DNA from: a virus
Virus record (IMG/VR): IMGVR_UViG_3300025120_000017
Span: 62,001-126,000 of that record
DNA: 64,000 nucleotides
Direction: 5' to 3' (one strand)
Every line of letters begins with the position of its first letter. The stretch's first letter is position 1. This document shows, in pieces, positions 2,770 through 47,309 of this stretch. The position numbers and the translations under genes are program-made. The notes under the pieces are model-generated. The model saw nothing but the letters and a program-made list of their open reading frames with translations, had not been told where the DNA came from and searched no databases.

Positions 2770-3774
2770 TTAAAATACAATCATAGATTCATCTCCATTA
2801 ACTTCAACGAATTTTATATTATTTGATTTAAGTATTTTAATTACATCTTTCATTGTCATCATTCCAGATATGGATTCATCTCCGATAACAAAAGACATTT
2901 TCTTAGATAATTTTTTTAATTGAGCCGCAGTAGATTCATCAAAATCATCAAATTCAATTTCAGATAATTCCCCAGCATAATCAGCAAGCTCTGATGGTAC
3001 ATCAGATTCATTAACCTTCCCAAAAGATTCTTCAACTCTATCAGAAACAACAATTCCTAAGTATTTCTCAATTTCTTCTTTTGAGAATCCTTTCTTAGCC
3101 AATTCATCGATTATCTTTGTTAAAGTACTTCCTACAATAGAGTCAAGTTTTCTTTTCATAAGCTTAACATCGCCTGCTTCACCAATAAACTCTTCAGCAT
3201 TTTCTTTATCTTCAGCATCAACATCCTCAACATCGTATTCTTCATCACCGACTTTAAATGTTTTTTCGTCATTTGCAATTGCCTTAGCTCTAGCAGCACT
3301 GAATGCATTTCCTTCTTTAACAGATTCAAATTGATGTCCTACAATTTTAAGACCTGCTACGCCTGGAAAAAATTCCCCTTGATCTGTTTGTATTCTACCG
3401 CTTGATGCTGAATGACGAGGTTCAGAAAAACCTTTAACTACAATAGCATCACCTCTAAAGTCTTTAGTCTTATAAGGTAATTTAACAACTTTTCCGGTTT
3501 TTTCATCTACTAACTTAGCTGATTCATTAACTGATTCGTTAGCAAATCTTGCCACGCCTTTATCAAATGCCTTATGATATTTTTTAGGAATATGGTCAGA
3601 TTTTAGGTAACTAATAAGTTCCTCTGCGCTATCCCACATTTGGTTAGCTGCCTCATCTGCATCGCTTGTATATTGACCAGCTGCATTAATGATTTCCATT
3701 GCAATATCCTGGTCAAGTCCATACATTTCATTAACAGACTTGCTTTTATTTATAAACCTTTTATAACTTTTCAT
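2770..3774 (-). CDS. Candidate internal head/core protein, multi-module
   Basis: A 334-residue acidic protein starting MKSYKRFINKSKSVNE, the same N-terminal tag as its neighbours, with a hydrophobic-x-Glu site (VNE) at 14-16. Further possible prohead-protease sites are SVNES near 81-85, FIGEA near 196-200 and KVNES near 253-257. Residues 157-185 (NAFSAARAKA ... VGDEEYDVEDV) form a small charged module. Residues 199-258 are nearly identical to a block in the 4529-5143 protein. No enzymatic motif is seen. Modular acidic proteins with such sites fit prohead core or internal proteins cut during head maturation. Function is inferred by analogy to T4 internal proteins. Confidence 0.6.
   Translation of the reverse strand: MKSYKRFINKSKSVNEMYGLDQDIAMEIINAAGQYTSDADEAANQMWDSAEELISYLKSDHIPKKYHKAFDKGVARFANESVNESAKLVDEKTGKVVKLPYKTKDFRGDAIVVKGFSEPRHSASSGRIQTDQGEFFPGVAGLKIVGHQFESVKEGNAFSAARAKAIANDEKTFKVGDEEYDVEDVDAEDKENAEEFIGEAGDVKLMKRKLDSIVGSTLTKIIDELAKKGFSKEEIEKYLGIVVSDRVEESFGKVNESDVPSELADYAGELSEIEFDDFDESTAAQLKKLSKKMSFVIGDESISGMMTMKDVIKILKSNNIKFVEVNGDESMIVF
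3001..3180 (-). repeat. Copy A of a 60-codon duplicated block
   Basis: This block encodes residues 199-258 of the 2770-3774 protein, beginning EAGDVKLMKRKLDSIVGS. It differs from copy B (4568-4747) at only about four of 60 residues, and the DNA is also closely similar. Recent duplication or recombination between neighbouring genes is the likely origin. Confidence 0.9.
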
Positions 3775-3786
3775 TTTAAATCTTTT

Positions 3787-4515
3787 TTATTTTATTTTCA
3801 ATAAGTCATTTATAAACTTTTCAACATCCTTTCCTTTACTTAAAATAACATCAGCAGTTTCATCATCTTCACTAAATGGTATAGGATATTCTATTGCAAT
3901 TCCATTACCTGCTTTGGATATATTAGCGTCATATCTATCAATATCTTGGATTGATGTGTTTTTAACTTTACCTGTCTTATTAAAATTTGATAGTACTGAA
4001 ATTAAAGTACTAATCTCATCTTCATCAAAAACCATTTCAGATTCACCATTAAAATCTATAGCAACACCCTGAGATGCTTTAGATACCGATACATCAGATT
4101 CATTAACTGATTCATTCATTGGAATATCAACACCTAGTAATATTACGCTAACAGTTGGAGTACCACCTACGCTAAATCCTGGCAAAAATGCTTTAGCTTT
4201 TTTTCCTTTTTTAGATATTGATTCGCCTGCCTTCTTTATAATATTTCTAATCTTTGCAGTTTTTGGATCATCTTCATCAGTAAATGATGAATATCCATTA
4301 TCGTCATCATATACTTTAATATCTTTAAGAGCTTTAGCAGTAAAATCAAACTTTAAAACAGGAAATTCCTTTCTTCCATCCATGTTAAGTTCAAGTTTAG
4401 GATTTTGTAATAAACCTGTCTTCATCATGACATCTTGTGCATATTTAATCTGTGCATCTGTAAAATTATCATTAACATGCTTTGCTTCATTAACAAAACT
4501 TTTATAACTTTTCAT
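3787..4515 (-). CDS. Candidate internal head protein with internal repeat
   Basis: A 242-residue protein beginning MKSYKSFVNEAKHVND, with the shared capsid-targeting-like tag and a VNE|A site. A second cluster of possible processing sites (NESVNES) lies near residues 134-140. The C-terminal 100 residues contain two divergent copies of one module: SVSKASQGVAIDFNGESEMV and NISKAGNGIAIEYPIPFSED, each followed by an acidic helix. This suggests a duplicated small alpha/beta domain. It sits 13 bp from each neighbour in a run of tagged genes. No catalytic motif is evident; a packaged structural or effector role is inferred. Confidence 0.6.
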   Translation of the reverse strand: MKSYKSFVNEAKHVNDNFTDAQIKYAQDVMMKTGLLQNPKLELNMDGRKEFPVLKFDFTAKALKDIKVYDDDNGYSSFTDEDDPKTAKIRNIIKKAGESISKKGKKAKAFLPGFSVGGTPTVSVILLGVDIPMNESVNESDVSVSKASQGVAIDFNGESEMVFDEDEISTLISVLSNFNKTGKVKNTSIQDIDRYDANISKAGNGIAIEYPIPFSEDDETADVILSKGKDVEKFINDLLKIK

Positions 4516-4528
4516 CTTAAACTATTTT

Positions 4529-5143
4529 TTATTTTTCAGTGGATGCCATATTTCCTTCACCGTCTGCATCTGATTCATTAACCTTTTTAAAAGATTCTTC
4601 AACTCTATCAGAAACAACAATCTCCATATACTTTTCGATTTCCTCTTTTGAAAAACCTTTCTTAGCTAATTCATCGATAATCTTCTTTAGTGTAGATCCT
4701 ACAATAGAGTCAAGTTTTCTTTTCATAAGCTTAACATCTCCTGCTTCAGTAATTCCTGATAATGCTTCAGTAACTTTTGCAGTTATTTCTTGGTCATCAT
4801 TAACAACTTCATCACCATCTCCGGATTTTGTTGGTTTACCTTTTGCTACTTCTTTATCTTCTATTTCATCAGATGATTCATCACCATCACCCATATCTTT
4901 AGAAACCTCTTTGCCAGCACCGTTTCCATTTTCTTGGTCTTCGTTATCTGCTTTTACCATTTCTGAAACTTCTCCGTCCCATTCTGATTCTATTTCGTTA
5001 AAGAATTTTTTCTTTTCTCCAGTAGATAAGTCAGCAGGTGAATCCGCGCCGTACTCAGCTAATTTTTCTTTAAAGAAATCTGCATATTCTTTTTGCTTTT
5101 TAGACTTCTCTTCTTCTAGTATAATTTGTCCTAAACTTCTCAT
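4529..5143 (-). CDS. Acidic candidate core protein sharing a 60-residue block
   Basis: A 204-residue, very acidic protein. The N-terminus MRSLGQIILEEEKSKK is a looser version of the capsid-targeting tag, with an ILE site at 8-10. Residues 60-125 are dominated by Glu, Asp, Gly and Lys and are probably disordered. Residues 133-192 duplicate the block of the 2770-3774 protein and end in KKVNESDADG, another possible cleavage site. T4 core proteins gp67 and gp68 are also small and highly charged, but I see no direct homology. An ATTAAATATAAAAA element lies upstream, so this gene may open a transcript running to the terminator at 1702-1729. Confidence 0.6.
   Translation of the reverse strand: MRSLGQIILEEEKSKKQKEYADFFKEKLAEYGADSPADLSTGEKKKFFNEIESEWDGEVSEMVKADNEDQENGNGAGKEVSKDMGDGDESSDEIEDKEVAKGKPTKSGDGDEVVNDDQEITAKVTEALSGITEAGDVKLMKRKLDSIVGSTLKKIIDELAKKGFSKEEIEKYMEIVVSDRVEESFKKVNESDADGEGNMASTEK
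4568..4747 (-). repeat. Copy B of a 60-codon duplicated block
   Basis: This block encodes residues 133-192 of the 4529-5143 protein. Compared with copy A, the substitutions are Thr to Lys, Leu to Met, Gly to Glu and Gly to Lys; all other positions match. Both copies end in VNESD. Confidence 0.9.
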
Positions 5144-5179: not shown

Positions 5180-5842
5180 TTATTTAATTCCATTCACAGG
5201 CATTCTAACCATTTCCTTATTAAACCGCTTTTCTTTATTTTCTTTAAATCCAAATCTTTTATAAAATTCTTTAAGTCTAGATGTTGAGCTTCCAAATTTA
5301 TCTGTTGTATCAAGAGTTAATATAAAACTTTGGTTATCTGCAAATTTAATAAGATCTTCCATGATTCTTGATCCTATTCCACTATTTTTATGAGTTTTAT
5401 TTACTTCTAAATAATTTAGCATAATAACATCTTCATTAGTTGTTATTGGATAATAGGATAATTTAATATCTTCAACAGGAAACTTCTTTAGTATGCTATC
5501 AGCAAATTCTTTAACCATTTTGGTTTTAGTTTTAATATCTTCTTTAAGGCCATCATATTTTTTATAACTTAATAGCCAACCTCTTAGCACTTTAGTAATT
5601 GAATCTGCGTGAGTTCCTTCAGGTTTTTCTATTGTTGTAATATTAACAGTAATATCACCATCTTGTAAACTTACTACTCCCGCATCTTGAAGAATTTTAT
5701 ATTCTTTTTCTCCATATGTATTTTTAATAAAATATGCAACTTGTCCTAAAAGATCATATTGACTGTTTTCAACCATTACATTAGGTATAGTACCAATAGG
5801 ATATAATTTAGATTGATTAATAAATTTTTTTAACCTCTTCAT
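5180..5842 (-). CDS. GNAT-family acetyltransferase-like protein
   Basis: A 220-residue protein whose C-terminal half fits the GNAT fold. An acetyl-CoA-binding motif A-like stretch, NSGIGSRIMEDLIKFA, lies near residues 154-169. It is followed by a beta strand (FILTLDTT) and the typical YKRFGFKE motif near 190-197. GNAT enzymes transfer an acetyl group from acetyl-CoA to amines on proteins or small molecules; the substrate here is unknown. The N-terminus MKRLKKFINQSKLYP weakly resembles the tag of the neighbouring head-protein candidates but lacks the Glu at the expected cleavage position. The start overlaps the end of the uvsW gene by 4 bp, so the two are probably translationally coupled. Confidence 0.7.
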   Translation of the reverse strand: MKRLKKFINQSKLYPIGTIPNVMVENSQYDLLGQVAYFIKNTYGEKEYKILQDAGVVSLQDGDITVNITTIEKPEGTHADSITKVLRGWLLSYKKYDGLKEDIKTKTKMVKEFADSILKKFPVEDIKLSYYPITTNEDVIMLNYLEVNKTHKNSGIGSRIMEDLIKFADNQSFILTLDTTDKFGSSTSRLKEFYKRFGFKENKEKRFNKEMVRMPVNGIK

Positions 5843-13500: not shown

Positions 13501-13751
13501 CCCCAATCGCTATCAGCTTGATTATTATTTATCTCATCTTCTGCTATTTTCTTAATAAGCATTTCAAACTTAACAGATGTTGTTCCACTATAAATATTTT
13601 CCATTTCATCCATTTTTCTAGCAGCATCTAAAAAAGCTTCTAAATTAACTCCATTTCCACCTTTTTTATTTATAATTTGCATTTGCTTTAAAACAAGCTT
13701 TTCCATATCATTGCTTGTGTTCCTATGATTCATTTCTTGTATAGTTTTCAT
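13497..13751 (-). CDS. Small helical hypothetical protein
   Basis: An 84-residue, mostly helical, charged protein (MKTIQEMNHRNTSNDMEKLVL...) ending NNNQADSDWG. It starts at the stop of the upstream head-protein candidate (1-bp overlap) and overlaps the next gene, so it is part of the same translationally coupled unit. No recognisable family. Confidence 0.55.
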   Translation of the reverse strand: MKTIQEMNHRNTSNDMEKLVLKQMQIINKKGGNGVNLEAFLDAARKMDEMENIYSGTTSVKFEMLIKKIAEDEINNNQADSDWG

Positions 13752-14329
13752 CAGTATGTAATATCTTTTTTATCTTGTGCTATAATTGATTTTATTTCCT
13801 TCACAAGCTTTGCAGTTGTTTTAGGATACCTATTTGTTCCAAAGTTATTGTAGAAACTTATAAAGCCATCTTCAGCTATGTCAATAAATAAAGTATCTTT
13901 TGCATTAACAAAGCCTTTCTTAGTAACACAGTCATATTCAAAAAATACATCATATTCACCATCAGCGTTATTAACGCCAATATCATATGTTGCTTTAGGG
14001 CCATTAGGAAACTTGCTTGTTAAAAACGCCGCAACTGATTCAGGCGTTATAGGTGCTTTAGCTTCTAAAATATTTCCATCTTTATCAAAGAAATCATCTG
14101 GGTCTAAATGATAATATCCCATTATGTCACTCACAATATCTTGATGGTCTGAATTATCCATATCATATTCCTTCTTAATGAACGCTTTAATTTTATCATC
14201 AGAAGGTTGACCTTTTCCTAAAACTTTTTTAATCTTAGCGATAGAATTATATTTATGATCTCTGTCGCTATCTTCACTTAAATGTGAATACTTCTTAGCT
14301 TCGTTTAAAAATTCGTTTAAGCTTTTCAT
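13751..14329 (-). CDS. Candidate internal head protein, capsid-targeting-like tag
   Basis: A 192-residue protein beginning MKSLNEFLNEAKKYSH, a good match to the T4 capsid-targeting pattern with an LNE|A site at 8-10. A second possible site, NILE|A, lies near residues 87-90. The central part has a helical region with two short acidic helices (DNSDHQDIVSDIMGYYHLDPDDFFDKDG). The C-terminal 100 residues form an alpha/beta domain ending KEIKSIIAQDKK. No enzymatic motif is recognised. It follows the glycine-zipper protein with one base between ATG and the preceding stop. Confidence 0.6.
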   Translation of the reverse strand: MKSLNEFLNEAKKYSHLSEDSDRDHKYNSIAKIKKVLGKGQPSDDKIKAFIKKEYDMDNSDHQDIVSDIMGYYHLDPDDFFDKDGNILEAKAPITPESVAAFLTSKFPNGPKATYDIGVNNADGEYDVFFEYDCVTKKGFVNAKDTLFIDIAEDGFISFYNNFGTNRYPKTTAKLVKEIKSIIAQDKKDITY

Positions 14330-32447: not shown

Positions 32448-32963
32448 TTATACAAATGATATAGTTTTCCATATAGTTGCATTATATAATTTAGCAACAT
32501 TAGCAGTAGTGTCATAAACCATTTCCCCTCCTACTAAACCTGCTATATTAATATCTCCAATTTCAGTAGTAGTTAATCTAGGTAATTTAAGTAAATCAAA
32601 CGTAGATACATCTAAACCACTAAAATTACCAGTAGATGTTTTAGCAAATAATTTCTCTGCTACTTTGTTTCCAGTTGATCCTAACACCATAAAAGATTCA
32701 TCTTTATTTAAAAGAATATCTCCATCATTTAGTGATAAATCACCAATAGTTACTCCTACGCCTAAAGATGCTACTGTAAGTCCTTCAGTTATGATTACAC
32801 CATTTGAACCAACTCCAGTGTTATCAAATTTTCCTGTAGTTGTATCTAAAATTCCTAACAGACCATTAATGCCACTAATTACTGTAGAAAAATTATCATT
32901 TATGGTAATCCTATCAGCTGCTATTGAGCTAGTACCTTGTAGTGTTGTTACGCTTATTGACAT
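32448..32963 (-). CDS. Short fibre-base-like protein sharing the spike N-terminal domain
   Basis: A 171-residue protein. The start MSISVTTLQGTSSIAADRITINDNFSTV is clearly related in pattern to the MGKIIVLKGTGSILADRESINKNF start of the next two genes: a GT-SI-ADR-IN-NF signature. This suggests a common virion-attachment domain. The middle has a beta-rich repetitive part (GVIITEGLTVASLGVGVTIG). The C-terminus (GGEMVYDTTANVAKLYNATIWKTISF) resembles the common fibre ending in which a strand pair closes a trimer. It could be a minimal fibre or a spacer. It is the last gene before a terminator. Confidence 0.62.
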   Translation of the reverse strand: MSISVTTLQGTSSIAADRITINDNFSTVISGINGLLGILDTTTGKFDNTGVGSNGVIITEGLTVASLGVGVTIGDLSLNDGDILLNKDESFMVLGSTGNKVAEKLFAKTSTGNFSGLDVSTFDLLKLPRLTTTEIGDINIAGLVGGEMVYDTTANVAKLYNATIWKTISFV

Positions 32964-32996
32964 GTTTAATTATTATTTTGTTTTATATTTATTTCA

Positions 32997-34526
32997 TTAG
33001 ATTATTCTTATATCAGTAACTCCGCTTCTTATACCGGACGAATTACTAGAAATTGCCGTTCCGTAATTAAGTAAAGTTGTGGGTATTATAGCATTAGTTA
33101 CTATATTATCTATTTGTACATTCAAATCCGTAGAAGTAGAATCGTCTAATAGTATGTATCCATCAGTAACTCCTTGTGCTGAAACTTTGAACCTACTATT
33201 TATGATATGAAACATTGCATATCTTGTAGGTATTAAAATACTACTGGCTGCCAATGAATCGTGTTTATAGTCAATAGAACAATCTTGAAACATTATATCT
33301 ACATACGCTTTTTCATTACTAGATGATATATTGAATAACGGAAATCCATCTTCAACTGTAAGTTTACATTTATCTAATTTGAATCTTGTATAAGTTTCAC
33401 TATTGTTATTAGTAAATCTAAACAAAGCTCTTTGTGTTGCTTGGTCTCCGGTCTTTATAACTATTTCATCAATATTAATATCAACATAGTTAAAAGCGTG
33501 TGTGCCCGTAGCATCGTGATATTCTTGAATATTCATTATATTAAAGTAAGAAACTTGAGCGGCTCCGCTATTAACCCATTCTAATCTTTTTGCAGTTACT
33601 TTAAACGTGTTGGTTCCAGTTATAGCATATACATTATCTGTAAACCAAGGAACTCTATCAACATTTATAAAATATTTATGCGTATCAGCAACACAGTACC
33701 CACAAGTAATTTTTCCTTTTACATTTAAGTCTATCAGTTGACTACCTTCTGCTTGGCAAAATATTGCGGCTACATTTACATTTCCTCCAACTTCAATAAC
33801 AGCACTTGATGCGTGTGCTCCTAAGAAATAGTGACCTCCCATAACATCTCCAGTTACAGACCCTTTTAGGAATCCTTGATAGGTTTCGGGAACAAGGTCG
33901 GATTGAACATAAAAGTGTGTTCCGATATCAGCTTTGTTACTTCCTGTTGGTTCTAATAAAGTTGTACTTTTTATATTAAATTCTACGGTTGACCCTTCGG
34001 TTATTAGTATAAATCCACTTCCGAAATCATTATTACTTCTACCTACAAATTCCCCTTCTCCTGTAATGTAAAATTTAATAGGATTAGCACCATTATTTGT
34101 TTTACCTACATCATGGAACATTATAGTATCCTTTGCTTGGCCGCCATTTCTAAAAGTAAAAAGAACTGGTTGGTCAGTCAAATGAGGATTTGTAATTCCT
34201 GTTCCGGGTAAAAAATGATAAGTAACTTCATCTTTACCTAAACCAATTTCATTAGTCATCATCGTGGTAATCAAAATAGTATCTCCAAAAGTTGCTCCCA
34301 GTTCTGCCCCAGCAATTGTTTTATATTTTTTAATTAAACTTCCTTTTATTGCAGTGGAATTATCACCATTTGTAGCATCTACTACTAATATTTGATTTGA
34401 AATTATTACACTATTAATGTTTTTTAAACTATTAACATCTTCATGTAAATGTTTAAAGTTTTTATTTATGCTCTCTCTATCGGCTAATATCGACCCAGTC
34501 CCTTTAAGTACTATTATTTTACCCAT
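32997..34526 (-). CDS. Tail spike-like beta-helix protein 1
   Basis: A 509-residue protein. The first 32 residues are identical to those of the 34553-36214 protein (KGTGSILADRESINKNFKHL) and probably form the baseplate-attachment domain. A pectate-lyase-type entry block (ILVVDATNGDNSTAIKGSLI...YKTIAGAE) follows near 45-80. The rest has the short-strand, Asn/Gly/Ile-rich pattern of a right-handed beta-helix, usual for spikes that bind or degrade surface polysaccharide. No catalytic residues can be named. The leader and first codons lie in a perfect 112-bp repeat shared with the upstream spike gene. Confidence 0.7.
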   Translation of the reverse strand: MGKIIVLKGTGSILADRESINKNFKHLHEDVNSLKNINSVIISNQILVVDATNGDNSTAIKGSLIKKYKTIAGAELGATFGDTILITTMMTNEIGLGKDEVTYHFLPGTGITNPHLTDQPVLFTFRNGGQAKDTIMFHDVGKTNNGANPIKFYITGEGEFVGRSNNDFGSGFILITEGSTVEFNIKSTTLLEPTGSNKADIGTHFYVQSDLVPETYQGFLKGSVTGDVMGGHYFLGAHASSAVIEVGGNVNVAAIFCQAEGSQLIDLNVKGKITCGYCVADTHKYFINVDRVPWFTDNVYAITGTNTFKVTAKRLEWVNSGAAQVSYFNIMNIQEYHDATGTHAFNYVDINIDEIVIKTGDQATQRALFRFTNNNSETYTRFKLDKCKLTVEDGFPLFNISSSNEKAYVDIMFQDCSIDYKHDSLAASSILIPTRYAMFHIINSRFKVSAQGVTDGYILLDDSTSTDLNVQIDNIVTNAIIPTTLLNYGTAISSNSSGIRSGVTDIRII

Positions 34527-34540
34527 AACTTTTTTATATT
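34429..34540. repeat. 112-bp direct repeat, copy 1
   Basis: This segment is identical base for base to 36117-36228. It spans the upstream leader, the start codon and about 32 codons of a spike gene. Identity at synonymous sites and in the leader implies recent duplication or ongoing gene conversion. Confidence 0.95.
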
Positions 34541-34552
34541 CTTAATTTTGTT

Positions 34553-36214
34553 TTATAATAGACTTTCGTATTTTGAATATTCGGTTAATATTGTAGAATC
34601 TAACAGTTTCATCTTTGGTATCCCAGTTGCATAAGAGTTTCCTGTAAAACTATCTACAAATGTATTAATTTTTACCGTTCCGTTTGATATAAACTCACCA
34701 ACAATATAAGCATTATCTTCTGTATTGTCATCTGTTCCAAATACAACTTGACCAGCAGTAATTGCCAATGGATTTATGATAACCTTAGTTGTTCCATTAA
34801 AGGTAAAGTTAGAAAATTTAGTATCTATGACTGAACCTCCATACCTATTAGAACCTCTTTTCCAATCGTAGAAACTTGTTTGAGCTGCAGGGTCAGTATA
34901 AACAATAGTTGTATTATTATAATTTATAATTGCCTTTGATTTATGAATTGAGGTATTTGTCTTTCTTGAATAATCTAATCTTGCCCCAACACCCAATAAT
35001 ACTAAATCAACATTCATATCAAGTACCAAAGAAATCGGTGCATATGCTGTGTCTGTACTAACAGATGATACTGATTGGTGCCCACCATTACCTGGCGCAA
35101 CCGTTGTATCGTTGTGTATTTTCAAAATTCCTACATTAAATTGTACATAATGATTACAATCTTTATATGCTAAAATAATACCATTTTCATCTAATGACAT
35201 ATTTGGTCGAGGGTCATAAAATTCATATAAAGGGGTGTTTATAATATATGTAGATTTAGCAGTTGCCGAATTAGCACATTGTATATTAGCTCTTGCACCA
35301 CCTACATAATGACTACCGGTTGTTATTGATTTTTCTGCTGATAAAGTTGCAAAAGAATTATCACAAGTTGATGATGAACCACTGTTTGTAATTAATGTAA
35401 CACCATAACTTAAATCATTTGTTCTAATACTACCTTTTGTATGAATATTAATATTCGTATTGGCAGCACCAAGATTTACTACTACCCAAGCATTGACTAT
35501 ATCACCACTTGCTCTAACATCTATCGTACACCCATTACCACCTAAATAAAATAACCAACCATCATCACCAATAATTTCGATATGTTCAGAATCGAGCATT
35601 ACTACCTTAGATGCTGATGTTAATCTTACAATAGACCTTCTCCACACACCATACCAATATGAATCAATTGTAAATCTGCCACCTATTATAGTATAAGAAA
35701 TATCTGTTCCTGATTTATCTGTCCATAATGCATTCCAATTTTCTCCTGTTATGTTTGGGTCAGTTGACGGATATGACATTGTTGAATTATTTTCAAAAAT
35801 ATAAGTAATTCCATCTTTACCTCTATTTGCTTCTACAACATCTGTGATTATTTTAATAATATTTCCAACTACTGCCACATTTTCTGCACCTTCAATAGTT
35901 TTAAAAGGTTTATCATAACTCCCTTTTACTGCAGTTGCATTATCACCATTTATGGCATCAACAATTAATATGCCAGTATTTAGTTGCTGGTCAATAGGTA
36001 CACTATTTTTCAAACTCTCCAATGCATCAGTGACAGTAGTTCCAGGCACGGTTGACTCATTATCTACATTCCCAGAAGTCGTTTTAACATTTTTATTAGT
36101 AATTGTGCTTTCTATGCTATTAACATCTTCATGTAAATGTTTAAAGTTTTTATTTATGCTCTCTCTATCGGCTAATATCGACCCAGTCCCTTTAAGTACT
36201 ATTATTTTACCCAT
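34553..36214 (-). CDS. Tail spike-like beta-helix protein 2
   Basis: A 553-residue paralogue of the preceding spike. The N-terminal attachment domain is identical over 32 residues. It is followed by a short linker (residues 35-75) and the block ILIVDAINGDNATAVKGSYD then FKTIEGAENVAVVG. The remaining 450 residues are beta-helix-like and diverge fully from the other spike. The pair looks like alternative or stacked receptor-recognition spikes on a common anchor. No catalytic motif is identifiable. It lies 16 bp downstream of the gp7-like gene and carries the second copy of the 112-bp repeat. Confidence 0.7.
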   Translation of the reverse strand: MGKIIVLKGTGSILADRESINKNFKHLHEDVNSIESTITNKNVKTTSGNVDNESTVPGTTVTDALESLKNSVPIDQQLNTGILIVDAINGDNATAVKGSYDKPFKTIEGAENVAVVGNIIKIITDVVEANRGKDGITYIFENNSTMSYPSTDPNITGENWNALWTDKSGTDISYTIIGGRFTIDSYWYGVWRRSIVRLTSASKVVMLDSEHIEIIGDDGWLFYLGGNGCTIDVRASGDIVNAWVVVNLGAANTNINIHTKGSIRTNDLSYGVTLITNSGSSSTCDNSFATLSAEKSITTGSHYVGGARANIQCANSATAKSTYIINTPLYEFYDPRPNMSLDENGIILAYKDCNHYVQFNVGILKIHNDTTVAPGNGGHQSVSSVSTDTAYAPISLVLDMNVDLVLLGVGARLDYSRKTNTSIHKSKAIINYNNTTIVYTDPAAQTSFYDWKRGSNRYGGSVIDTKFSNFTFNGTTKVIINPLAITAGQVVFGTDDNTEDNAYIVGEFISNGTVKINTFVDSFTGNSYATGIPKMKLLDSTILTEYSKYESLL

Positions 36215-42094: not shown

Positions 42095-42475
42095 TCATGT
42101 AGTGTATGCAGAGATATATGGAATATCTTCTCTATAATGTGTTGATAATCTAGAATAACCATCAAGAACTTCATCATTAAAAATTACAATAGGATTATCC
42201 AATTCATCATCATGTGGAATTTCATCCCACTCTTCAGAATCTTCTCCATATCTATCTTCACCGCTTTTTATATATTCCTTAACATCTTTATCTTTTCTAA
42301 TTACATCTTTAACTTTAACTTTTTTTAATGTAAATGTCTTATTAGATTTAAGAATTTTTTCTATAAAAAAGTCAGGAACATCGCTACTATCTGGTGTGAT
42401 GTAAGTAATGTAATCAGCAATTTCTTGCGCTGATTTACTTTTAGCCTCATTTAAAAATTTCTTATAACTTTTCAT
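42095..42475 (-). CDS. Capsid-targeting-tagged protein with ParB-like C-terminus
   Basis: A 126-residue protein beginning MKSYKKFLNEAKSKSAQE, the clearest match in the window to a capsid-targeting sequence, with an LNE|A site at 8-10. The remainder resembles a ParB/sulfiredoxin-type fold: FTLKKVKVKDVIRKD, then NPIVIFNDEVLDGYSRLSTHYR near 93-114, where DGYSR is close to the usual DGxHR signature. ParB-like domains bind nucleotides, cut DNA or act as adaptors; which applies is unknown. It lies between two structural genes, with a 1-bp overlap upstream. A packaged DNA- or nucleotide-binding effector is an inference. Confidence 0.55.
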   Translation of the reverse strand: MKSYKKFLNEAKSKSAQEIADYITYITPDSSDVPDFFIEKILKSNKTFTLKKVKVKDVIRKDKDVKEYIKSGEDRYGEDSEEWDEIPHDDELDNPIVIFNDEVLDGYSRLSTHYREDIPYISAYTT

Positions 42476-43247: not shown

Positions 43248-44552
43248 TTAATTATTTTGTGCTTCTTCTGCGTCTATTACCTCTACAGAATCATCTATCT
43301 CAGTATCTACATATTTACCTTCTCTAAAAATAGTGTTACCTTTAATTTGCATTCGGTCTAATGTAATAAATTTTCCATTTATATATCCATTTATGACTTT
43401 ACCGCTTTCATGGTGACCATCCTTAAGTCTAGTCTTCTTTAAATCGCATGAAATTGTATCAGTGTTTGTTAAGTCACATTTACTTGTTTTACTATCTTGT
43501 AATATTGCATTATCTATCACGCATTGTATAAACCTACAGTTATGAAAAATTACCCTATGTGAATCTATCACAGTATCCTTAAAACTAATATCAACAAACT
43601 CAAGCAATGATTCGTCTGAGTCATAATTTATTTTTCCTGCCATGCCATAAGGAATGTTTTCCATCTGTTGCATTAGTGGAAAAAATACTTGTATTATTTT
43701 ATGGAACTGTGATTTAACTGCTTCAGAATTATCATTACCATCAACAGATAACTTAAGTTTTTTAAATATGTTCTTAAAATTAAAATAATCTTTACTTGCT
43801 AAAAAAAGTTTATGCTTTTTATCTACTATAGATTTAAGAATCTTATTATCTTCTTTATCATATGGTTTATTATATGATAAAATTAATGAATCAATAAAAT
43901 AGTCCATTAACTCAATAGTTTCATCAGATCTAATTGCATATTTAGGTCCTCCTAAATATCTAAATTCTAAATAACCTTTTGATAATTTAGTAAAGTTTAT
44001 TCCATAGTACTTATTACTTGGAAATACATAATTTGTTTTATTAAATGTTAAATTATCAATGGCATAACTGCCATGTCTAGGGAAAATAGATTTAATGGTT
44101 TTGGCATATATATTATTTTTTCTATCTGGAAAATATTTATAAACCAAATCCTCATCAAAATCAATAATATATTTAAGAATGTCAATGTTTTGAATATACC
44201 TACCTTCTATATTAATGTTAATATGTATACCACATCTTTCATTAAGTGATATTTTTTTATCTTCTCTTATAAACTTAAGCATGTTTAGTAAGACAATTCT
44301 TGCTAATGGATATGATATAGGCCCAGTAACAACCTCAACTAGGCTTACGCCTCCTGAAAAATCTGGCTCCATTTTCCAATGGTCATTTGTTGGTATAAAG
44401 TCAGAATGATGTTCTTTTTCTAATTTAACATCAACTTTAAATATTTTTTTGATTTTTTTCTTAATTTCTCCTAAGTTATATTTAGGATCTCTTAAAAATT
44501 CAAACTCAAACCCTATTTGTGACTTAGTTTGTTTAATTTCGTTAGGAGTCAT
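43248..44552 (-). CDS. Putative amidoligase (glutamine synthetase-like fold) with pentapeptide-like C-terminus
   Basis: A 434-residue protein. The N-terminal 220 residues carry the motif set of the phage/bacterial amidoligase family: GFEFEF at 14-19, WKMEPD at 59-64, LVEVVTGP at 71-78, CGIHININ at 107-114 and YLEFRYLGGP at 194-203. Such enzymes use a glutamine-synthetase-type ATP site to join a carboxyl to an amine, making peptide-like or protein-modifying bonds. Residues about 315-410 form short repeated strands (ISFKDTVIDSHRVIFHNCRF...) like a pentapeptide or beta-helix stack. An enzyme of this type inside a baseplate cluster is unusual. Substrate unknown; modification of a virion protein or of host peptidoglycan are possibilities. 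It follows a terminator and a promoter-like element. Confidence 0.68.
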   Translation of the reverse strand: MTPNEIKQTKSQIGFEFEFLRDPKYNLGEIKKKIKKIFKVDVKLEKEHHSDFIPTNDHWKMEPDFSGGVSLVEVVTGPISYPLARIVLLNMLKFIREDKKISLNERCGIHININIEGRYIQNIDILKYIIDFDEDLVYKYFPDRKNNIYAKTIKSIFPRHGSYAIDNLTFNKTNYVFPSNKYYGINFTKLSKGYLEFRYLGGPKYAIRSDETIELMDYFIDSLILSYNKPYDKEDNKILKSIVDKKHKLFLASKDYFNFKNIFKKLKLSVDGNDNSEAVKSQFHKIIQVFFPLMQQMENIPYGMAGKINYDSDESLLEFVDISFKDTVIDSHRVIFHNCRFIQCVIDNAILQDSKTSKCDLTNTDTISCDLKKTRLKDGHHESGKVINGYINGKFITLDRMQIKGNTIFREGKYVDTEIDDSVEVIDAEEAQNN

Positions 44553-44565
44553 CTATTACGCATAT

Positions 44566-44580
44566 CTTTTAATATTTAAT
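44566..44580 (-). promoter_or_regulatory. Candidate late-promoter element (variant)
   Basis: Minus-strand ATTAAATATTAAAAG, one base from the consensus, 13 nt upstream of the amidoligase-like start and immediately downstream of the terminator stem at 44586-44609. Confidence 0.45.
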
Positions 44581-44609
44581 AAAAAAGACGCAGTATAATT
44601 ACTGCGTCT
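44581..44609 (-). terminator. Intrinsic terminator after the S1-domain gene
   Basis: A 9-bp perfect stem (AGACGCAGT/ACTGCGTCT) with a 6-nt loop is followed on the minus strand by TTTTTTATT. It lies 37 bp past the stop of the S1-domain gene and before the amidoligase-like gene. Confidence 0.9.
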
Positions 44610-44645
44610 CTTTGAACATTTTTAAAACATGTCTTTTATATAAAA

Positions 44646-45770
44646 TTAAACAAATGATAAATCATATTTTCCATTATTAATGTTTATGATTTTGCATTCT
44701 ACTTTATCATTACGTTCTACCTCAACATTTTTCATTTTTGATATATGTACTAGACCACTTGTATTTTTATCAAATTTAACAAATGCACCGTATGAAGTAA
44801 GTTTAGTTACTCTACCTTTTACTATTTCGTTTTTCTTATATTTAACTTCCTTTAATGCTGTTAAATCCACTTCAAATCTTGATAGGATAATTCTCTTAGG
44901 ATTAATTATTTCTTTTAAGAAAAATTCAATCTCTACACCAGGCTTAACCTGACTATTGTCAAATAATTCCTTAAGGCCTTCATCAAATTCATCTTTATGA
45001 ATTAACCCTGTGAGAACTTCATTAAACTCAACAAATATACCAAAATGCGTAGTATCAGTTACTTTTCCAGTATACTTATCACCTACCACAAGATCTTGTA
45101 ATTTTATAGGAATTAAAGTTTTTAAATATTCTCGATGAGATACGATAAGAGTGTTTTTATACTTAGAATAACTATTATTATTTTTAACAGTCATTACTTT
45201 AATGGTTTCTCCAACAAGATCATTAAAATCAACTAATCTGTTTATTCCACCTAAGCTACCTGGCATAAATACATCAAGACCTAGAATATCAAGGTCATAT
45301 CCATTATTTGATAGCCTTAATACCTTAGCATCATATACTTTCTTAGAATCCCAATCTGTCATATCATCATATAGCTCTTTCCTGATCTTTCCAGTAATAG
45401 ATGCTTTTAAATACTCAGAACTTTCTTGATCTTGAGTGATAATTACTTCAATTTCCTGACCAATAGAAAAGTCGCTTGGATTTAGTTTATCCTTATCAAC
45501 AGACACGTATGCAAGTTCTCTATGCCCAACATCTAAAGATATTTCACCCTCAGTAATAGAAACAATTCTTCCTAGAACTACTTCGCCAGTGCATAATGAA
45601 TATTTTTTAACAGGAGTTACTCCATTAAAATAGTCTTCATATGATTTTGCTAAATCTTTTGCATAAGGCTCTGTTGATAGAATTTTTAAGCCTGATTTTG
45701 TTTGAAATGGTTGTTCAGCCGTGAACACGGAAATGTTTTTAGGATCCCCATAAACTTCTGTAGAGTTCAT
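44646..45770 (-). CDS. Four-S1-domain RNA-binding protein, ribosomal protein S1-like
   Basis: A 374-residue protein built of four OB-fold S1 repeats near residues 60-125, 142-213, 228-298 and 312-374. The last two are the most typical (GKVTDTTHFGIFVEFNEVLTGLIH and KGRVTKLTSYGAFVKFDKNTSGLVHIS). The first 55 residues are an unrelated leader. Bacterial S1 has six repeats and brings mRNA to the 30S subunit; four-repeat forms are also known. A phage copy could favour phage mRNAs, act in transcription or antitermination, or bind phage RNA. It is placed between a structural gene and a strong terminator. RNA binding is well supported; the target is not. Confidence 0.85.
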   Translation of the reverse strand: MNSTEVYGDPKNISVFTAEQPFQTKSGLKILSTEPYAKDLAKSYEDYFNGVTPVKKYSLCTGEVVLGRIVSITEGEISLDVGHRELAYVSVDKDKLNPSDFSIGQEIEVIITQDQESSEYLKASITGKIRKELYDDMTDWDSKKVYDAKVLRLSNNGYDLDILGLDVFMPGSLGGINRLVDFNDLVGETIKVMTVKNNNSYSKYKNTLIVSHREYLKTLIPIKLQDLVVGDKYTGKVTDTTHFGIFVEFNEVLTGLIHKDEFDEGLKELFDNSQVKPGVEIEFFLKEIINPKRIILSRFEVDLTALKEVKYKKNEIVKGRVTKLTSYGAFVKFDKNTSGLVHISKMKNVEVERNDKVECKIININNGKYDLSFV

Positions 45771-45794
45771 ATTTTTTATTTTTAAGTGTATAAT

Positions 45795-46322
45795 TTATTT
45801 AATAGTAAATCCGATTACTGGTACTGAGATTTTAGGAGGTGGAGCTCCTGCCACTGCAAGACCATTATATAAAAATGATATAGTTTTTGCATGTCCGCTA
45901 AAGACATTAAATAATGCGCTTGTTATATTATCATAATCAGCGCTTTCTTCAAATAGAGGCAATGTAGGTGGTATTGGAGGTGTTGATATTGTGACTACTC
46001 CTGAATCAACTAAAGACATTCCAATTGTAGGAATAGCAGGTAGTTTAAGACTACCTGTTGCCCATGCAGCAATAAGAGATGCTTCTATTAAAGTAAATTG
46101 CATGTATGATCCTGGAATAGATTCAGATAATTTAATTTGTGCTACTATTGCACTTTTGATGAGTGTATAATTAATTCCACTCCATCTGTTCATATTTGAA
46201 TCTTTACCATTGCTGACAGCATCTTTATAATTATCAACAATAAGACCAGCAACATCTACTATGCTGCCAGAATTATTTAAGTTATCTTTAAATGATTGTT
46301 CTAAATCAGATTTTAGGCCCAC
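45795..46322 (-). CDS. Putative baseplate-associated protein, Pro-rich
   Basis: A 175-residue protein. The first 90 residues are helical with a hydrophobic stretch (FTLIEASLIAAWATGSLKLP near 77-96). Then comes a Pro/Val/Ile-rich part (VVTISTPPIPPTLPLFEES) and an ending APPPKISVPVIGFTIK. The hydrophobic helix is not a clear membrane anchor. It lies 3 bp from the tagged protein and close to the spike and hub genes, which suggests a baseplate-centre component. Family not recognised. Confidence 0.55.
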   Translation of the reverse strand: MGLKSDLEQSFKDNLNNSGSIVDVAGLIVDNYKDAVSNGKDSNMNRWSGINYTLIKSAIVAQIKLSESIPGSYMQFTLIEASLIAAWATGSLKLPAIPTIGMSLVDSGVVTISTPPIPPTLPLFEESADYDNITSALFNVFSGHAKTISFLYNGLAVAGAPPPKISVPVIGFTIK

Positions 46323-46325
46323 CGT

Positions 46326-47309
46326 TTATTTAAGTTTAGTTAATAAATCAGACCATAAATCAACTCTTGAAATATCAGGAAAGTTATATCCTGATTTTTT
46401 TCCTCTCATATCTTCAACACCGACTTCTTTTTCAAGATGCTTTATAACCATTTTAGTAATATCTTTATCGTTAAAACGTATAATAGGCTTTTCCATTATA
46501 GGTGAATAAGGACCTCCATACATATTATATTGACCTTCTTGAATAGCAAATATTTCTTTACCAAATTTTGTTTTACCTTTTACTTTAAAAGTGTTGCTGC
46601 TCCACTCTATATAGCCTTCTAATAGATCCAACTCAGCAGCAATTTGACTAGCTGCATCCTCTTCACTACTGTTATATTCTGCCCAAAGGGATCTATCAAT
46701 ATCATACTCTACGTTAATCTCTGCAGGAATCATTATTTTATCTCTTAAAACTCCTTCATTAACTGATTCCATTTTACCAGATGATAGGTCTTTAAGATCT
46801 TTATTAGCATTATCTATGTTTTTACTTTCTCTTTTGAATATTCCAATAAATTTCTTAACAACACTTTTTAAACCTTGTATCATTTTAGAAAGAATATTTT
46901 CATCGATACTTTCAGATTCATTTGTTCCTATTTCAAAAGAATGTCCTATATTGGTTATCTTTTTAGAAGCTGCTAAAGATTCTTCTAATATGTTTCTTGT
47001 TGCTGAATTAACTTTACCTAAAGCCATTTCAAACGCATTCTTATACGAAGCTGAACTTCTCTCATGTGCAAATCTTTTAATCTTTATCAAATAATCATCA
47101 GTTTCTGCTAGCTTTTCACCAGTTTCCTGCATTGAATCCAATAAAGGTGTTATTTGCTTACCATATTCACCAAATTGTTTTTTAGCTTCTTTAAGCTTTG
47201 CTGATAGTTGATTAATCTCTTCTTGTAAAAGATAAAAATCATCCATTGATGCAACAATTGAAGGGTCTTCTATTTTAGATTCTTTTATAAAATTTCGTAA
47301 ACTTTTCAT
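46326..47309 (-). CDS. Capsid-targeting-tagged protein in the baseplate cluster
   Basis: A 327-residue protein starting MKSLRNFIKESKIEDPS, with an IKE site at 8-10 as in the head-protein candidates. Residues 20-110 form a long coiled coil (LQEEINQLSAKLKEAKKQFG...). Near 134-165 there is SIDE|NILSKMIQGLKSVVKKFIGIFKRE, a basic amphipathic helix just after another Glu site, and further on ESVNE|GVLRDK near 186-195. The C-terminal 130 residues are alpha/beta. The possible processing sites fit cleavage by a prohead protease, with release of a cationic peptide. Its place between the spike and structural genes is odd for a head protein. Function unknown. Confidence 0.55.
   Translation of the reverse strand: MKSLRNFIKESKIEDPSIVASMDDFYLLQEEINQLSAKLKEAKKQFGEYGKQITPLLDSMQETGEKLAETDDYLIKIKRFAHERSSASYKNAFEMALGKVNSATRNILEESLAASKKITNIGHSFEIGTNESESIDENILSKMIQGLKSVVKKFIGIFKRESKNIDNANKDLKDLSSGKMESVNEGVLRDKIMIPAEINVEYDIDRSLWAEYNSSEEDAASQIAAELDLLEGYIEWSSNTFKVKGKTKFGKEIFAIQEGQYNMYGGPYSPIMEKPIIRFNDKDITKMVIKHLEKEVGVEDMRGKKSGYNFPDISRVDLWSDLLTKLK

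Follow-up and report, generated by a model that had tools for sequence, protein, structure and literature searches.

A phage homolog of ribosomal protein bS1 domains D1 to D4 in a lineage of huge phages and its probable role in the translation of messages without Shine-Dalgarno sequences

The window analyzed here, 64,000 nucleotides of a 171,834-bp IMG/VR virus contig (IMGVR_UViG_3300025120_000017) that is likely a fragment of a larger genome, contains an open reading frame (ORF) for a protein of 374 amino acids. A first-pass annotation made from the letters alone had read it as a phage protein with four S1 repeats, a translation or transcription factor that could direct ribosomes to A/T-rich phage leaders. 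Is this protein a generic RNA binder or a counterpart of the ribosomal protein bS1, and on which messages would it act? The ORF lies on the minus strand where it had been called, and its place among baseplate genes on a virus contig agrees with a phage origin. Because the gene and its neighbors are conserved across 80 viral loci, it is not a chance ORF.

Domain architecture and relation to bS1

Pfam recognizes D3 and D4 of the 374-aa protein as S1 domains (PF00575, 9e-21, in two stretches, together with S1_2). D1 and D2 have diverged too far to be recognized by the generic Pfam S1 model, and the count of four domains therefore rests on profile, structure, and bS1 alignment. In a phmmer search against PDB sequences, residues 55 to 347 match bS1 (E 8e-26), and the NCBIfam rpsA model (TIGR00717), a model of the long cellular bS1 forms, matches residues 58 to 368 (9e-32) with 110 bits, under its curated cut-off of 577 bits. 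As all rpsA equivalog cut-offs in NCBIfam are missed, we term the protein a bS1 homolog and not an rpsA equivalog.

An AlphaFold2 model built from 45 homologs (mean pLDDT, 82; pTM, 0.50) consists of a helix (residues 35 to 49) and four OB barrels, so that the four repeats of the first-pass annotation are borne out by profile, structure, and alignment alike. The short N-terminal helix of bS1 is its anchor on uS2. In the PDB, the model is most similar in fold to bS1 chains of 30S subunit structures (Foldseek, E 1.3e-21), and VIA places model residues 43 to 374 on bS1 residues 1 to 347 with a Z of 12.9 over 311 residues; the rmsd of 11 over this length arises because the domains move, and D1-D2 taken separately gives a Z of 12.9 over 167 residues at an rmsd of 4.7. 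A relative on another contig (L051) is aligned by phmmer with bS1 residues 5 to 344 in one stretch, which begins in the N-terminal helix. The window protein is thus a colinear homolog of bS1 D1 to D4 that includes a predicted counterpart of the docking helix, which goes beyond the possession of generic S1 repeats. D5 and D6 are missing, as the chain stops with D4 (Table 1).

Table 1. Features of the S1 locus, in window coordinates
Feature	Position	Strand	Basis or remarks
Phage bS1-like gene, 374 aa, ATG start	44646..45770	-	ORF call and translation; Pfam S1, PDB bS1, and NCBIfam rpsA matches
Predicted N-terminal helix (residues 35-49), putative counterpart of the uS2-binding bS1 helix	45624..45668	-	AlphaFold2 model, phmmer alignment of L051, VIA
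D1, OB barrel, residues ~58-118	45417..45599	-	Model and VIA; Arg at the bS1 Lys43 position
D2, residues ~143-214, signature FMPGSLGGIN	45129..45344	-	Model; Phe120/Phe130 positions aromatic
D3, canonical S1 domain, residues ~228-298	44877..45089	-	Pfam S1_2, best stretch 230-267; model, VIA
D4, canonical S1 domain, residues ~310-374, chain end	44649..44843	-	Pfam S1, 310-366; model, VIA
Leader box ACACTTAA, -19 to -12 of the S1 start	45782..45789	-	Family form AC(C/T)TTTAA; column information
ATTAAATAA, possible S1-gene promoter element (weak)	45795..45803	-	Putative function
Intrinsic terminator after the S1 gene	44582..44613	-	14-bp stem, 4-nt loop, T run; dG -18.7 kcal/mol, z -6.6
TTAAATATTAAA, late-promoter-like element of the amidoligase gene	44568..44579	-	15 nt 5' of its start, directly after the terminator
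Amidoligase-like domain and pentapeptide repeats, 434 aa, downstream neighbor	43248..44552	-	Pfam 1.6e-8 and 8.7e-6

This architecture also bears on the suggestion that the protein is an S1/NusA-like transcription factor that serves the RNA polymerase of the phage or of the host. S1 domains are also part of NusA, NusA chains are found among the lower fold matches, and the CUUUAA within the leader box described below presumably resembles boxA. However, Pfam finds no KH domains in the window protein and the model shows four OB barrels only, the top matches are all ribosomal bS1, and the activities of E. coli bS1 that are linked to RNA polymerase involve D5-D6 (PMC10931766), which are missing here. 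The transcription alternative of the first-pass annotation has thereby lost ground, and we regard it as highly improbable.

A cryo-EM study of the E. coli ribosome names the bS1 residues that touch uS2 or mRNA (PMC10123108). The equivalent positions were read from 33 phage proteins aligned to cellular bS1, an alignment in which the N-terminal register is uncertain. The Lys43 position holds R or K in 30 of the 33 phage proteins (Arg in the window protein), the Phe130 position is F and the Phe120 position Y or F in all 33, and the OB2 aromatic pair near the mRNA (Phe120/Phe130) is thus kept in 33/33. At the Phe9 position, the window protein and all three Bacteroidota bS1 sequences have Tyr, and at the Phe5 position, where the register is uncertain, the phages have mostly Leu or Met and Bacteroidota bS1 has Leu. 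Equivalents of Lys117 and Phe79 show no conservation in the alignment of the 33 phage proteins, and the Lak proteins are without D4 and without a Lys43 equivalent. An N-terminal tag, F-x-W-x2-(Y/F/H)-(E/Q), is present in 3/3 Bacteroidota bS1 and 0/7 other sequences tested and is absent from the window protein itself; among the phage proteins it was counted in 36 of 61, a number that depends on the regular expression, which missed a near match in Lak-B5. The family has signatures of its own, FMP(G/N)(S/T)L and TGTTxFGVF, and the one in D2 is strong. Because the patterns used in the contig scan were phage biased, their few matches mean a phage-specific signature and not a scarcity of bS1 in cells.

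It is conceivable that the protein no longer docks on the 30S subunit and binds RNA off the ribosome, where it would coat, protect, or silence RNA, for example in host mRNA decay or in competition with host bS1. In line with this, the best-recognized canonical S1 domains are D3 and D4, D1 is divergent and has lost some of the E. coli contact residues, and Al-Shayeb et al. allow for either place of action, “on or off the ribosome” (PMC7162821). A protein released from the ribosome would not obviously account for the retention of D1-D2 and the invariant aromatic positions across the clade at about 30% identity, nor for the strong family signature in D2, and we consider this reading unlikely.

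Distribution and descent of the phage S1 gene

A profile scan of IMG/VR revealed 490 stretches that encode relatives of the window S1 protein, the best 80 of which were kept as loci. In 80/80 of these best loci, the S1 gene belongs to a tail/baseplate block and is followed by an amidoligase-like gene and a head-tail-adaptor-like gene; where the loci reach far enough, a baseplate spike gene flanks the S1 gene on one side and gp25/gp6-like genes on the other. The pentapeptide-repeat match of the amidoligase-like neighbor (8.7e-6) is under the Pfam gathering score. A functional pairing of the S1 and amidoligase genes was considered and rejected, since the two are unlinked in the larger mahaphages. 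There were no near DNA matches in the phage collection.

In a sensitive whole-record search, the S1 gene was found once in each of seven huge phages out of seven (mahaphages of 462 to 735 kb and two Lak phages). It occupies a single site in LR756500, LR745206, LR756502, LR756504, LR756501, and Lak-B5, and in Lak-A1 it consists of two adjoining pieces of one gene. The same kind of search found it in 0/5 smaller phages (168 to 235 kb) that share the gp6 baseplate gene. A tblastn search with the window protein yielded a match in all 15 of the Lak records that match gp6. Matches in small “Listeria,” “Enterococcus,” “Acinetobacter,” and fecal “Bacteriophage sp.” records were not accepted as relatives; judged by record size and identity to cellular bS1, they are likely host bS1 in contaminated assemblies. 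One contig from a metagenome-assembled genome labeled Erysipelotrichaceae (L090) has the phage S1 gene adjoining gp6 and gp25 homologs, and hence either a Bacillota phage carries the gene or the contig was mis-binned.

Phylogenetic analysis placed the phage S1 proteins in one clade (support, 100/100) apart from the cellular bS1 used, in a tree that took in three Bacteroidota bS1 sequences and in which the phage branch is long. S1 identities between loci track the identities of the tail genes (Pearson, 0.95 to 0.97). From the single clade and the divergence in step with the tail genes, we conclude that the S1 gene is an old, vertically kept part of the huge-phage lineage. The carriers are a lineage of very large phages related to Bacteroidota phages.

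Since the gene lies within the tail/baseplate block in the window lineage and in LR756500, and since its divergence tracks the tail genes, a role as a virion or tail-assembly part, with the baseplate having taken up an OB/S1 protein, has to be weighed as well. In the Lak phages, however, the S1 gene has a DnaB-type helicase gene and an RNA ligase gene as neighbors and gp6 is far away; the gene has its own leader and terminator, and four-domain bS1 homology would be unexpected for a baseplate component. We therefore find a structural role very unlikely.

Elsewhere in the window, six minus-strand genes (2770-3774, 3787-4515, 5180-5842, 13751-14329, 42095-42475, and 46326-47309) encode otherwise different proteins that start with an MK(S/R)(Y/L)xxF(L/I/V)(N/K)-like N-terminal tag followed by a lysine-rich stretch. 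The tag is reminiscent of the T4 capsid-targeting sequence. Three adjoining genes at 32448-36214 (minus strand) have related N-terminal regions, and two of them, 32997-34526 and 34553-36214, have an identical start context too; the arrangement suggests tandem duplication with different C-terminal parts. The proteins of 2770-3774 and 4529-5143 (minus strand), otherwise unlike, share a 66-aa stretch at 88% identity, probably a recent local duplication or exchange.

Translation starts and the leader of the S1 gene

Shine-Dalgarno (SD)-like tetramers were found at 1/52 window starts, compared with 14% of random 15-mers (p 0.004), in agreement with the weak SD use that the first-pass annotation had ascribed to the hosts. 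Adenine peaks at -13, where it occurs at 79% of the window starts. These SD-poor, A-rich starts match the Bacteroidota pattern, and the A-rich stretch near -13 fits S1-assisted initiation; in Bacteroidota, domain 4 of bS1 has been suggested to meet the mRNA at -12 to -15 (PMC6847099).

The proposal that the S1 protein directs ribosomes to A/T-rich leaders held up in part: the A-rich stretch fits it, whereas the recurrent element of the first-pass annotation, which we took to be TTAAATATAAAA, is promoter-like. All seven exact copies of TTAAATATAAAA lie on the coding strand, and the opposite strand has none; five of the seven precede a start codon by 12 to 19 nt, and a terminator or an intergenic gap is often found ahead of the element. 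It resembles the T4 late promoter, TATAAATA. Because of the strand bias, the position after gaps and terminators, and this likeness, a late promoter is the simpler reading, and TTAAATATAAAA was rejected as a translation leader. In L023, L028, L051, and their relatives, GATATATAATA, which differs from the TTAAATATAAAA of the window, recurs before several tail-module genes and is a candidate late promoter of that sub-lineage. A sigma-70 scan was uninformative (39 found versus 40 expected).

The leader of the S1 gene itself contains a conserved box that had been missed at first pass. When 37 S1 leaders (those of the window and of 36 loci left after dereplication at 85% protein identity) were aligned solely by the start codon, AC(C/T)TTTAA emerged as common to them near positions -18 to -12, a stretch that is occupied by adenines in ordinary genes of these phages. 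Over columns -18 to -12, the information content is 7.16 bits for the S1 leaders of the 36 loci versus 1.3 to 3.4 bits for eight orthologous neighbor genes at the same loci. A T at -14 is present in 32/37 S1 leaders versus 45/336 control genes, the starts of which were assigned by BLAST and may be wrong at some loci. The regular expression for the box was chosen after the leaders had been inspected; the column analysis did not depend on such a choice. A similar box, ACCCTTAA, is present in LR756500, and no clear copy was found in the larger mahaphages or Lak. On the strength of this sequence conservation, the box is a candidate regulatory site of the S1 gene.

In many relatives, GATATATAATA also lies about 35 nt upstream of the S1 start, and this placement, together with the strong terminator behind the gene (a hairpin found by folding and missed by the terminator scan), indicates that the S1 gene may be its own transcription unit. 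The four S1 leaders tested have no consistent fold (z from -3.1 to 1.1), and the low z of L051 stems from hairpins located at the start codon and past it.

A special leader without an SD sequence allows E. coli bS1 to repress its own mRNA, and D6 is required for this repression (PMC10931766). Because D6 is absent here, autoregulation of the phage S1 gene can be put forward, by analogy, as a hypothesis only. The phage bS1 gene might be controlled through its own mRNA, with AC(C/U)UUUAA as a dedicated site that phage bS1, or ribosomes equipped with it, would recognize; we hold this possibility to be tentative and rather doubtful. If true, the box would be a sequence-specific, SD-free signal for initiation or repression on the Bacteroidota ribosome, and control through it would set phage-programmed ribosomes apart from those of the host.

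Proposed function and relation to known systems

In Bacteroidota ribosomes the anti-Shine-Dalgarno tail is hidden, and a part in start-site choice has been suggested for bS1. Our analysis establishes computationally the bS1 homology over D1 to D4, several kept contact positions, presence in all lineage members searched, and the near absence of SD motifs. The translation-factor reading of the first-pass annotation is thereby sharpened, through alignment, fold, and contact positions, to that of a bS1 D1-D4 homolog with the half that corresponds to the ribosome-docking part of bS1. We estimate at roughly two in three the probability that this protein docks on the host 30S subunit and favors SD-less phage mRNAs. 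Ribosome docking, RNA binding, preference for phage mRNA, and timing are what we infer, as follows. During infection, phage bS1 would most likely bind the 30S platform, either replacing host bS1 or next to it. The helix and D1-D2 would be the docking half, and D3-D4, the first two mRNA-binding domains, would be presented to single-stranded A/U-rich phage leaders without an SD sequence; with such leaders captured, ribosomes would start on phage messages.

Two arguments stand against docking with such a preference. (i) Bacteroidota hosts ordinarily start translation without SD sequences, and the bS1 of these hosts should also be able to serve phage mRNAs. (ii) Lys117 and Phe79 have no conserved equivalents, Phe5 is mostly Leu/Met, the window protein is without the F-x-W tag, Lak is without D4, and the rpsA cut-offs are missed.

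The kind of phage protein described here is already known, as Al-Shayeb et al. (2020) reported rpS1 in huge phages, linked it to missing SD sequences, and proposed the same role in a hijack of translation (PMC7162821). The proteins that they described, from “a few genomes,” have as many as six S1 domains, and they noted that true rpS1 is hard to confirm (PMC7162821). Their phages are partly the same as ours (Mahaphage, Lak clade), with predicted Bacteroidetes hosts, S1-domain proteins, and few SD sequences; the present analysis differs in that one D1-D4 family is found in 7/7 huge phages, with evidence from orthology, synteny, and residues. Mizuno et al. omitted S1 owing to its functional ambiguity (PMC6375957). 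What the present analysis adds is the orthology test, the lineage-wide count, and the leader box, of which we found no description in the literature consulted.

With the bS1 of Bacteroidota and E. coli, the phage family shares colinear D1 to D4, the aromatic Phe120/Phe130, and probably the docking helix, with a basic residue at the Lys43 position in most members; it differs in being without D5-D6, in its long branch outside cellular bS1, in its rpsA score below the cut-off, and in its own signatures. The bS1 of Microcystis phage PhiMa05 is likewise phage encoded and about 360 aa long, but it groups with cellular bS1 in the tree and adjoins cell-like rplU and rpmA; we considered it as contamination and rejected this, as it has been reported to be genuine (PMC13157829). 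Phage bS21, known from Bacteroidota phages, is also a phage copy of a ribosomal protein of the 30S platform, but it is another protein at another site. It is present in four mahaphages and was not found in the record of the window, LR756500, or Lak.

With these results, the earlier “possible rpS1” of huge phages can be delimited as a family, for which a candidate regulatory site is at hand. For the question of how Bacteroidota ribosomes choose their start sites, a minimal bS1 of four domains, retained by all huge genomes searched, offers itself as a tool.
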